Shown piece by piece: positions 7,492 through 15,506 of a stretch of 64,000 nt of DNA; the stretch's first letter is position 1, and each line of letters begins with the position of its first letter. The stretch is taken from positions 310,001 through 374,000 of the forward strand of contig NZ_CANLNB010000003.1 in NCBI RefSeq assembly GCF_947492455.1, read 5' to 3'. The DNA is from an uncultured Aliiroseovarius sp. (lineage in GTDB: Bacteria; Pseudomonadota; Alphaproteobacteria; Rhodobacterales; Rhodobacteraceae). The position numbers and the translations under genes are program-made. Under the pieces are notes generated by a model that ran no database searches, was not told where the DNA came from, and worked only from the letters and a program-made list of their open reading frames with translations.

Positions 7492-8304
7492 TCAGATTTT
7501 GACCTCGACACCCGGCAGGTTCAGGGCCTTCATCAGCTCGCGCAGTTCCTGACGGGCGGCCACGTTCGAGATGTTCATCTGCCCCATAACGCCAATGTCG
7601 CGCAGGTCCAGCAGGGTCAGGCCACGGGTAAACAGCTCGCGGAAGATAACGCGTTCATTAAAGCCGGGGGCCACGCGGAAGCCGATGCGGCGTGACAGTT
7701 CGTCAATCGCGTCGCCCATCTTCTTCTTGTTGTGCATCATCTGTGCGCCCAGACGGTTGCGCACGACGACCCAATCCATTGGCTTCAGCCCCGCTTTCGC
7801 GCGAAGCTGGCGAGCGTTCCAGACCATCTCGGAATACACTGACGGGCCGGTGACCTTGCCCGAGGTCGGATCGATATGCGCCAGCAGGTCGAAATCCACG
7901 AAACTGTCATTCAGCGGCGTCACCAGCGTATCAGCCAGCGAATGCGCCACTTGGCTTAGGCGGGTGTGCGAGCCGGGGCAGTCGATCAGGATAAAGTCTT
8001 GGCTGTGTTCGAGCGAGGCAATGGCCATCGCCAAGCGGCGGTCATACGGGTTCTCGCCGTCTTTCAGCTCGGACGGGTCAATGTCGGGCAAATCGTGGTA
8101 TTCGGGCGTCGGCAGATTGGTGCCTTCACGCTCCATCGTGACCTTGCGGTTTTCGATGAACCGGCCAAAGGTTTGCTGGCGCAAGTCCAGATCCAGCACG
8201 CCCACCCGGTGCCCCAAGCGTGACAGCGAGGTCGCCACATGCATCGACACGGTCGACTTGCCCGCACCGCCCTTTTCGTTCCCGACAACAATAATATGTG
8301 CCAC
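7492..8304 (-). CDS. mipZ: Division-plane positioning ATPase MipZ
   Basis: The 270-residue product is a ParA/MinD-superfamily ATPase with the deviant P-loop EKGGAGKST at the N-terminus and LDLDLRQQTFGRFIENR just after. The switch region DFILIDCPG and the C-terminal GVMGQMNISNVAARQELREL fit MipZ closely. In Caulobacter MipZ binds ParB and forms a bipolar gradient that blocks FtsZ assembly away from midcell. It is a lone gene, transcribed away from the Lin0512 pair, with a 165-base divergent promoter region. Length and motifs are normal for the alphaproteobacterial protein. Confidence 0.93.
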   Translation of the reverse strand: MAHIIVVGNEKGGAGKSTVSMHVATSLSRLGHRVGVLDLDLRQQTFGRFIENRKVTMEREGTNLPTPEYHDLPDIDPSELKDGENPYDRRLAMAIASLEHSQDFILIDCPGSHTRLSQVAHSLADTLVTPLNDSFVDFDLLAHIDPTSGKVTGPSVYSEMVWNARQLRAKAGLKPMDWVVVRNRLGAQMMHNKKKMGDAIDELSRRIGFRVAPGFNERVIFRELFTRGLTLLDLRDIGVMGQMNISNVAARQELRELMKALNLPGVEVKI

Positions 8305-8469
8305 GCCACTATCCCCGGTATCTTGAGTGTTTTTTTCTTTCGGCCACTATATGTCGCATCATTCGCAGGGGGAAGAGGCGCAAATCCAAATTGTACAACT
8401 CTTTCGCGAAGCTGGCCCTATGATCACAGCACGGCTGCGGTAAGCATGGACAAAACCTCAGGAGGCACG

Positions 8470-8814
8470 ATGGAAAAGAAACGCGTACTTGTTGAATTCG
8501 GTATGGGCACGTCGCTGCGCCGCGAAGACTATACCGAGGCCGCCGCCCGCGCGATCCGGGACGCGCTTTGGCATAACTCGGTCAACATGGCCGAGCTGTT
8601 CGGGTTCGAGAAAGCCGACATGATCGTGGATGTCGAAATCGCCGTGCAACAGCCCGATCAGGTCGATACCAGCCAGCTGGCCAAGGAGTTTCCCTATGGC
8701 AACATCTCGTTCGTCGTGAAGCACGGCGGCTTGGACATTGACAAGCCGCATGTGGGGAAGACGCTGATCGCCAATGTCGTCATTGCCGTATCCTTCATGA
8801 TGGAGGCCGCGTGA
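8470..8814 (+). CDS. Lin0512 family protein, first of tandem pair
   Basis: The 114-residue product starts with KRVLVEFGMGTSLRREDYTEAAARAIRDAL, the hallmark of the Lin0512 family (a Pfam/TIGRFAM family of unknown function). The ATG at 8470 is preferred because AGGAGG lies just before it; the upstream in-frame ATG has no such site. It is soluble, with no signal peptide or membrane segment. It overlaps its paralogue by one base (TGATG), so the two are probably translated together and may form a heteromer. Function is not known. Confidence 0.85.
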   Translation: MEKKRVLVEFGMGTSLRREDYTEAAARAIRDALWHNSVNMAELFGFEKADMIVDVEIAVQQPDQVDTSQLAKEFPYGNISFVVKHGGLDIDKPHVGKTLIANVVIAVSFMMEAA

Positions 8815-9170
8815 TGGGCGAGAAACGCATGATCCTTGAAATGGGGATGGGCAATGACCTTTACGGTCAGGACTATACCAAGGCGGCGTGTCGCGCGGTG
8901 CAGGACGCACTGCATCATTCGTCGATTACTCTGTTCTCGACACTGGGTCTGGACCATCAGGATATGCGCGTATCCGTGACCATCGGCGTGGCCGACCCGG
9001 AGCAGGTGGATTTGGAGGTTGTCCGCGCCGAACTCCCCCGAGGCCGCGCCGAGGTGCGCGCGGTGAAAGGCGGCATGAACACAGACAGCGCCGGTCAGGT
9101 GCATGTGGTGGCCACCGCCGCGATCGAGGCGTGGCTCCCGGATCAGGCGGGGAAGTGGCGGCTGGGCTAG
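8814..9170 (+). CDS. Lin0512 family protein, second of tandem pair
   Basis: The 118-residue paralogue of the preceding gene has the same N-terminal block (KRMILEMGMGNDLYGQDYTKAACRAVQDAL), followed by HSSITLF and a C-terminal AIEAWLPDQ that the first copy lacks. The ATG at 8814 shares its A with the TGA stop of the first gene; a GTG one codon earlier is possible. This copy keeps the DLYGQDYTKAA form that I take to be nearer the family consensus, whereas the first has SLRREDYTEAA. The function is unknown. Confidence 0.85.
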   Translation: MGEKRMILEMGMGNDLYGQDYTKAACRAVQDALHHSSITLFSTLGLDHQDMRVSVTIGVADPEQVDLEVVRAELPRGRAEVRAVKGGMNTDSAGQVHVVATAAIEAWLPDQAGKWRLG

Positions 9171-9173
9171 GCC

Positions 9174-9216
9174 GGAATTTTGCAAAATTCCGATCCGAAC
9201 TCTTACCAAGAGTTCG
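9174..9216. repeat. Two consecutive perfect hairpins after the Lin0512 genes
   Basis: GGAATTTTGCAAAATTCC (9174-9191) is a perfect 18-base palindrome. Five bases later a second hairpin has a 9-bp stem, CGAACTCTT (9196-9204) with AAGAGTTCG (9208-9216), and a three-base loop. They follow the TAG stop at 9168-9170 by three bases and precede the rpmE terminator on the other strand. They probably end or protect the plus-strand transcript. No long T-run follows either. Confidence 0.6.
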
Positions 9217-9224
9217 CGCCCCAA

Positions 9225-9257
9225 ACAAAAAACGCCGCTTCGAATGAAGCGGCGTTT
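9225..9257 (-). terminator. Rho-independent terminator of rplS-rpmE
   Basis: ACGCCGCTTC and GAAGCGGCGT form a 10-bp stem with a four-base loop. On the minus strand it is followed by TTTTTTGTTT. It lies 22 bases past the rpmE stop and is a textbook intrinsic terminator. Confidence 0.9.
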
Positions 9258-9278
9258 CTGTCTCGAAAGAAGCTTTGT

Positions 9279-14876: not shown

Positions 14877-15506
14877 TCACCTTACCTCGACAGGAAGCGA
14901 GCCGCGACGGCTTTCCCATCCTGCTTTTTCCAGTTCGGGGCTATCGGCGTTCTGCTCGGGCCAGCCGAGGCAGAAATAGCCCACAAGGCTCCAGCTTTCA
15001 GGCACGTCCAGATCGCGACACAGCTGTTCCGGGTCCAGAATGGACACCCAGCCCAGCCCCAACCCGCGAGACCGAACGGCAAGCCAGAACAGCATGATGG
15101 CCGAGACCACAGAATAGCGCCGCATCTCGGGCATGGTTCTCGCGCCGAGACCTGCGCCCTTGTCGGTCGCCTCGTCACAGAAAATCGCCAACTGAACGGG
15201 TGCGTTTTCCATGCCAGACAGTTTCAGCCCGGAATAAAGCTGTGCCTTGTCGCCGGAATATCCAGACAACGCATCGGCATTGGCGGCTTTGAAATTTTCA
15301 AGTGCGGCGGCGCGCGCGTGGTCACTTTGGACACGCACCACCCGCCACGGTTCGGACAACCCCACAGAAGGGGCCATCAGAAACGCGTCGAGGCACTGCG
15401 TCAGCAATGCCTCGTCCACAGGATCCGTGCGGAAGCGGCGCACGTCGCGCCGCCAACGCATCAGATCTTCTAGATCCGACTGAAACTCGTCTGAAAAGGC
15501 GTGCAT
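14877..15506 (-). CDS. bluB: 5,6-dimethylbenzimidazole synthase BluB
   Basis: The 209-residue product is a nitroreductase-fold flavoenzyme. It has LMRWRRDVRRFRTDPVD at the N-terminus, MAPSVGLSEPWRVVRV, MRRYSVVSAIMLFWLAVRSRGLGLGWVSIL and the C-terminal SLVGYFCLGWP typical of BluB. BluB destroys FMNH2 with oxygen to make the lower ligand of vitamin B12. The gene is 24 bases after rpsP and five bases before the small membrane gene, so it seems to be expressed with ribosomal genes. A generic nitroreductase is the less likely alternative. Confidence 0.85.
   Translation of the reverse strand: MHAFSDEFQSDLEDLMRWRRDVRRFRTDPVDEALLTQCLDAFLMAPSVGLSEPWRVVRVQSDHARAAALENFKAANADALSGYSGDKAQLYSGLKLSGMENAPVQLAIFCDEATDKGAGLGARTMPEMRRYSVVSAIMLFWLAVRSRGLGLGWVSILDPEQLCRDLDVPESWSLVGYFCLGWPEQNADSPELEKAGWESRRGSLPVEVR

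Follow-up and report, generated by a model that had tools for sequence, protein, structure and literature searches.

The Lin0512 family (PF09585, TIGR02058) is represented by the crystal structure of a Nostoc punctiforme protein, 3C8L, released in 2008. We found no study of the family in the library searched, which agrees with an initial annotation that had called the role of the genes presented here undescribed. Bradyrhizobium-type singletons predominate among the named loci of the family. All 62 Lin0512 singletons that we gathered have D15 and G18, and 61 of them have H17.

The described systems that come closest to the function considered below are the split corrinoid methyltransferases of roseobacters, in which MtgB, MtgC, MtgD and MtgE serve glycine betaine demethylation and methionine synthesis, according to one account (PMC12478193). 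Another implicates RamA-like and DUF1638 proteins in the reactivation of the cofactor (PMC5764234). The passages of these two accounts that we consulted make no mention of a Lin0512 protein, and the pair is not among the components that they describe. Genes for PF06253 proteins, a corrinoid protein and a homocysteine S-methyltransferase do neighbour the pair in a few genomes, but MttB genes are common without it, since 211 of the 230 non-carrier genomes of the host's family have at least one.

Here we describe two Lin0512 genes, P1 and P2, in a stretch of 64,000 nucleotides from an uncultured Aliiroseovarius sp. (contig NZ_CANLNB010000003.1, positions 310,001 to 374,000), referred to below as the window. 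Unlike the singletons, the window has two diverged and overlapping copies, the first of which is without the loop Asp, Gly and Lys.

Results

A tandem pair of Lin0512 paralogues

P1 (8470-8814, plus strand) encodes a product of 114 aa, from an ATG start to a TGA stop at 8812-8814, and is preceded on the same strand by AGGAGG (8460-8465), which is its likely ribosome-binding site. P2 (8814-9170, plus strand) encodes 118 aa from an ATG at 8814-8816. The two genes overlap by one base, or by four if P2 begins at the in-frame GTG at 8811. Their products share 38% identity where the two match, and at E 0.1 their own genome has no further Lin0512 match. P1 holds a degenerated motif, SLRREDYTEAA, and P2 the intact one, DLYGQDYTKAA. 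Divergent from the pair and 165 bases away from P1 lies mipZ (7492-8304, minus strand; PF09140, E 3.6e-120), so that the pair is contained in the variable interval between mipZ and rpmE (8305-9278; rpmE named by eye). These results confirm the initial annotation in its description of the locus: tandem Lin0512 paralogues with a one-base overlap, both motifs exact to the letter, and divergence from mipZ.

Family membership is clear for both proteins, which match PF09585 end to end (P1: E 3e-31, 108.3 bits; P2: E 4.6e-35, 120.6 bits; cut-off 23.4), and this is the sole domain that Pfam lists for either at E 0.001. In the NCBIfam profile TIGR02058, P2 scores 70.7 bits, above the cut-off of 56.85, whereas P1 scores 56.4 bits, 0.45 bits under it. 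Judging from these profiles, P1 is a Lin0512 member in the sense of Pfam, yet a diverged paralogue.

The AlphaFold2 single-chain models (mean pLDDT 91.8 for P1 and 88.8 for P2) have the same fold as 3C8L, with Z 16.9 and rmsd 1.9 over 111 aligned residues for P1, and Z 16.3 and rmsd 2.0 over 110 for P2; the sequences match that protein as well (E 1.1e-12 for P1, 1.5e-14 for P2). The arrangement of strands and helices also resembles that of the FtsZ C-terminal (tubulin C-terminal) domain, with a best match of Z 8.0 (rmsd 2.7, 89 aligned), a value that the tool calls common; the best rows are just 10-15% identical across 89 residues. FtsZ and tubulin carry an N-terminal GTPase domain; such a domain is absent from P1 and P2 (Pfam, E 0.001), which are single domains of 114-118 aa. 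Proteins of similar size, RidA/YjgF and the Bacillus-type chorismate mutase, were weak Foldseek matches of the P1 model (E 3.5e-3 and weaker, TM about 0.3-0.4), and neither family has a Pfam match in P1 or P2 at E 0.001. The sites of these two families of enzymes are at trimer interfaces.

Conservation and origin of the pair

Sixteen of 81 genomes carry Lin0512, own genome included. The genus accounts for 11 of these (21 genomes), the remaining family sample for 4 (28 genomes) and the class sample for 1 (32 genomes). A survey of the phylum found 35 carriers among 397 genomes; each listed carrier in the host's family had two matches, and 10 of the 11 in another family (f38) had a single one. 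Within the host's family, 115 of 345 genomes carry Lin0512 and 230 are without it. A first pass gave two copies in 112 of the 115 carriers, one in two and four in one. A second match was recovered on re-search in G583 (E 2e-9), G597 remained single, and the four matches of G616 are two pairs on two contigs (L196, L197). Exactly two matches are thus found in 113 of the 115 carriers, and the co-occurrence of P1 and P2 is more than chance.

In the tandem loci that we read, P1 precedes P2 on one strand, and in no locus read from the host's family were the two found apart. Seventy-nine of 100 two-hit loci overlap by 1-8 nt with the starts as chosen here, in a set that includes two false pairs (L125, L181) and one repeat (L209, the same as L151). 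Gene calls came from our own simple caller, and neighbours and starts may err. Checked across genomes, the adjacency of P1 and P2 is kept with very few exceptions. A pattern scan of viral contigs, made with P2 alone, found no relative. In the two false pairs (L125:9083-10333 and L181:7089-8339, Bradyrhizobium), which look like one identical stretch, the intact Lin0512 copy follows a partial one at a distance of 357 bp. Two labels look doubtful: L108, labelled Frankia sp. RB7, groups inside the Bradyrhizobium rows, and L073, a MAG labelled Klebsiella pneumoniae, groups near them.

A tree of 180 rows was built from 117 kept columns, with many forks unresolved. All 59 P1 rows are on one side of a branch (support 94/91) and 58 of the 59 P2 rows on one side of another (support 93/99), and each side includes alpha- and gammaproteobacterial rows. 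P1 and P2 thus go back to a single old duplication common to these two groups, after which the pair has been passed on, by descent or by movement, as one unit. The odd P2 row, of Jannaschia marina, sits on a long branch beside singletons, and the tandem pair of this species (L131:9654-10357) is perhaps an independent one. A Dehalococcoidia singleton (L085) was placed weakly next to P1.

Residue asymmetry between P1 and P2

Residues were counted, in P2 numbering, over 76 loci: those of the host's family, L076, L123 and L127, which are named loci from Rhodobacterales, and a SAR116 locus (L137), with the Jannaschia locus L131 placed among the other loci and L209 duplicating L151. The conserved loop of P2 reads E-x-G-x-G-x-D-x-(H/Y)-G-x-D-x-T-K-A-A. 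Position 15 is D in 72/76 P2 and in only 2/76 P1, where S is found in 71/76; position 18 is G in 75/76 P2 and R in 67/76 P1; position 23 is K in 72/76 P2, and in the 76 P1 it is E (37), Q (25), K (7) or G (5). P1 has marks of its own, N36 and W34 (74/76 each), the latter outside the four commonest residues of P2, which make up 75/76 rows. Other positions are common to both proteins: E9, G11, G13, A24 and GG86-87 occur in at least 73/76 of P1 and of P2, D20 in 72/76 of each, and T22 in 76/76 P1 and 64/76 P2. The P1 proteins of the host's family retain E9, D20, R27 and most of D31 and H35. In the 24 other two-hit loci (two false pairs among them), P1 has D15, G18 and K23 in 24/24. The pattern matches what would be expected of a pair with one catalytic and one non-catalytic member.

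DxHxxG is a B12-binding motif, and we considered the DLHG of the loop as an instance of it. We gave this up, as the spacing is not that of the motif and Y occupies position 17 in 40/76 P2.

The neighbourhood of mipZ

The initial annotation had set the pair beside mipZ, but a link between the two is not supported. A mipZ homologue occurs within seven genes of Lin0512 in the window and in L143-L150 only, which is 9 of 121 loci, all nine from the host's genus; the 121 are a non-random set (the window, 40 chosen regions and 80 loci retained from 546 confirmed scan hits) and the count leaves out two carriers of the genus, G008 and G011. The adjacency to mipZ is thus not conserved, an outcome that the initial annotation had named as counting against its reading. 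All 10 pair-less congeners retain mipZ with no pair adjoining it. The gap between mipZ and rpmE, with lengths uncertain by a base or two, is 198-253 bp in four of them (L225, L227, L230, L231) and 959-982 bp in five (L223, L224, L226, L228, L229), where it contains a minus-strand ORF of 232-274 aa; the sole one tested of these five, L226:2460-3155 (minus strand), is a DUF4336 protein. In L232 we located no rpmE within reach of mipZ. No remnant of the pair was detected by hmmsearch in the pair-less intervals (best E 1.6). The presence of different genes in this interval among congeners indicates a site where genes come and go, and the place of the pair beside mipZ looks incidental. We rejected a partnership with MipZ on the strength of the adjacency survey and the pair-less sites.

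Genomic contexts and corrinoid genes

The pair has several recurrent contexts in the host's family, namely next to cobalamin genes, between addAB-trxA and hslV, between guaA and mttB, and next to transporter genes, and many further sites were met once only. Among 78 chosen loci read for context (L197 and L209 left out), 18 have the pair in a same-strand run that includes cob genes and two in one that includes mttB. Profiles named CobQ, CobO, BluB, CobN, CobW, CobG-like, threonine-phosphate decarboxylase, CbiB, MttB, homocysteine S-methyltransferase and the corrinoid protein; these tests were made on cluster representatives, and other members were assigned through BLAST clustering. The name hslV comes from a Pfam proteasome-subunit match, and the names of addAB, trxA, hslU, guaA and the transporter genes were given by eye.

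Distances were measured in 80 carriers, each of a different genus, taken in listing order from the top of the 115. In this set cobO is present in 75 and bluB in 50, and the position of cobQ is visible in 46. The start of cobO lies at most 3 kb from the pair in 29/80 carriers, and by chance a given gene would be expected that close, on one side or the other, in roughly 0.15% of genomes of 4 Mb; owing to shared descent, these 29 carriers are not 29 events. Any of cobO, cobQ and bluB lies at most 20 kb away in 33/80, and in 47/80 that distance contains neither cobO nor bluB nor a listed cobQ, where contig ends may hide some.

The order of the genes changes between loci. It is cobO-pair-cobQ in L156 and L218, cobO-x-pair-bluB in L158, L168 and L172, and cobO-bluB-x-pair in L190. 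L168 has a same-strand run cobW-x-cobN-x-cobO-x-P1-P2-bluB with gaps of -16 to 46, L172 is similar, and in some other genera bluB adjoins the pair directly. Cobalamin riboswitches were found in 7 of 18 loci scanned, upstream of the pair and on its strand in L190, and on the opposite strand in the other six. Near the pair of the window, Rfam gave no match, a riboswitch included. The one corrinoid gene at the locus of the window is bluB (5,6-dimethylbenzimidazole synthase; 14877-15506, minus strand), about 6 kb from the pair; a functional link of it to P1 and P2 would be conjectural. This bluB sits amid the translation genes rimM, trmD and ffh (names by eye).

The second corrinoid gene met near the pair is mttB, at 0.2-1.1 kb in G040, G579, G593, G658, G697 and G742, and also nearby in G702 (L205), which makes at least seven carriers in all. 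In G579 and G593 MttB is present and cobO absent, so that a link there would be with the use of B12 and not with its synthesis.

Kinship and distribution temper these associations. All 13 cob-linked loci on the 180-row tree fall in one 23-row branch of P1, and their placement may therefore be one old insertion kept by descent. Pair loci outside the host's family have no homologue of cobO, cobQ, bluB, cobN or cobW within seven genes. In 10 of 22 pair genomes from outside the family cobQ is missing, in a set of mostly MAGs by title with completeness not given for 19; the two complete ones have cobQ. Within the family, cobQ is found in 106/115 carriers and 193/230 non-carriers (p 0.04), which is a weak association. 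A strict tie to B12 synthesis was rejected, for cobO is missing in 5/80, bluB in 30/80 and cobQ in 9/115 carriers.

Some other neighbours recur. A thiamine-diphosphate enzyme, an FMN-reductase-like gene or both lie near the pair in L158, L163, L166, L168, L170, L172, L182, L185 and L189; the first name is a Pfam match in L185, and the second was given by eye, with no NCBIfam match in L166. The same context is found in G588 (L185), a genome without cobO and bluB. A thiamine-diphosphate enzyme as the common partner of Bradyrhizobium singletons and some pairs was considered and rejected, the compared proteins being just 30% identical. The neighbours of singletons (GNAT, beta-lactamase-like, TenA, UbiD, IlvD) indicate no single pathway. 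At L204:14277-14389 there is a TPP riboswitch, with a Lin0512 pair some 6 kb away.

Co-occurrence with MttB

MttB genes were counted as PF06253 matches, with at most four scored candidates per genome. At least one is present in 114/115 carriers and 211/230 non-carriers (p 0.006), and at least three in 100/115 carriers against 111/230 non-carriers (Fisher p 7e-13); the difference persists in four genome-size bins. Generalised least squares on a CobQ tree that covers 60 carriers and as many non-carriers, all with a visible cobQ place, gave carriers +1.12 MttB genes with a fitted lambda of 0 (p 4e-7) and +0.88 with lambda 1 (p 1e-4). In the strictest tree test, of 34 disjoint contrasts, 16 were for the association and 6 against (p 0.052), and the same 34 with candidate counts gave 19 for and 12 against (p 0.28). 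The association of the pair with MttB is correlative: it is clear in the sample, only partly secured against kinship, and may not be specific to MttB.

Discussion

Our results are best read, in our view, as those of a two-subunit enzyme that would serve corrinoid-dependent methyl-group metabolism and whose place beside mipZ is incidental. We hold this reading as a whole tentatively, at a little short of an even chance, and its parts differ in strength. That P1 and P2 form a heteromer is, taken alone, likely. The initial annotation had proposed a heteromer from the tight coupling of the genes; the coupling itself was borne out, with two copies in 113/115 carriers, and the heteromer is what we, too, infer from it, as strict coupling of diverged paralogues makes one likely. 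A homomer is presumably workable too, given that there are singletons with the full motif.

P1 and P2 would be two different subunits of one small enzyme, an obligate heteromer, and translational coupling would match their amounts. We place the putative site at the junction of the strand-1 loop, the beginning of helix 1 and the GG loop, probably on a subunit interface. P2 would give the reactive residues, as the active-site subunit, and P1 would complete or regulate the site. With less assurance, the enzyme may serve corrinoid (B12) methyl metabolism, for example the MttB-type demethylation of methylated amines, or the supply of the cofactor. The chromosomal site of the pair differs between genera.

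A corrinoid role of this kind is the best lead at hand, though still short of probable, and it is countered by recurrent sites, addAB-trxA-hslV and mipZ, made of non-corrinoid genes. The pair could instead form a heteromeric enzyme of general function, acting on small molecules or in metabolite repair, the cob placement being an inherited insertion and the richness in MttB a matter of lifestyle. We regard this as a serious possibility, if a somewhat doubtful one. It would account for several unrelated sites (addAB-trxA-hslV, mipZ, guaA-mttB and others), for the absence of cobQ from 9/115 carriers and for the single P1 branch of 13/13 cob-linked tree loci, and it fits the weak appearance of chorismate mutase and RidA in the fold search. 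However, adjacency to cobO is kept in 29/80 carriers, of different genera, despite changing neighbours (cobQ after the pair, bluB before or after it), and mttB provides a second corrinoid context.

It is improbable that P1 and P2 each form a homomeric enzyme of their own, the two sharing an operon and acting on related substrates. Each has its own conserved set (W34 and N36 in P1, D15 and K23 in P2) and single-copy relatives exist, but P1 and P2 are not apart in the host-family loci read, and 1/115 carriers is single-copy. Finally, an action in cell division with MipZ, for example by a mimic of the FtsZ C-domain that binds FtsZ or MipZ, is very improbable and largely refuted: the window's pair does adjoin a divergent mipZ and the models do bear a likeness to the C-terminal domain of FtsZ (Z 8.0 at best), but adjacency to mipZ was seen in the host's genus only, pair-less congeners keep mipZ, the tool rates a Z near 8 as common, the conserved polar loop resembles a ligand site, and 230/345 host-family genomes are without the pair.

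Returning to a two-subunit enzyme of corrinoid methyl metabolism, a narrower and rather unlikely version is that a catalytic P2 and a pseudo-subunit P1 make up an undescribed component of aerobic corrinoid methyl transfer in Rhodobacterales, serving bacteria that turn many MttB-type demethylases on osmolytes such as glycine betaine. The corrinoid association of the Lin0512 pair is a new lead, for a family that has had a structure since 2008 without an assigned function, as far as the literature searched shows. Should the corrinoid reading be wrong, an old pair of putatively catalytic and non-catalytic paralogues would remain to be solved. If it is true, the pair would add a missing part to a corrinoid methyl-transfer route.
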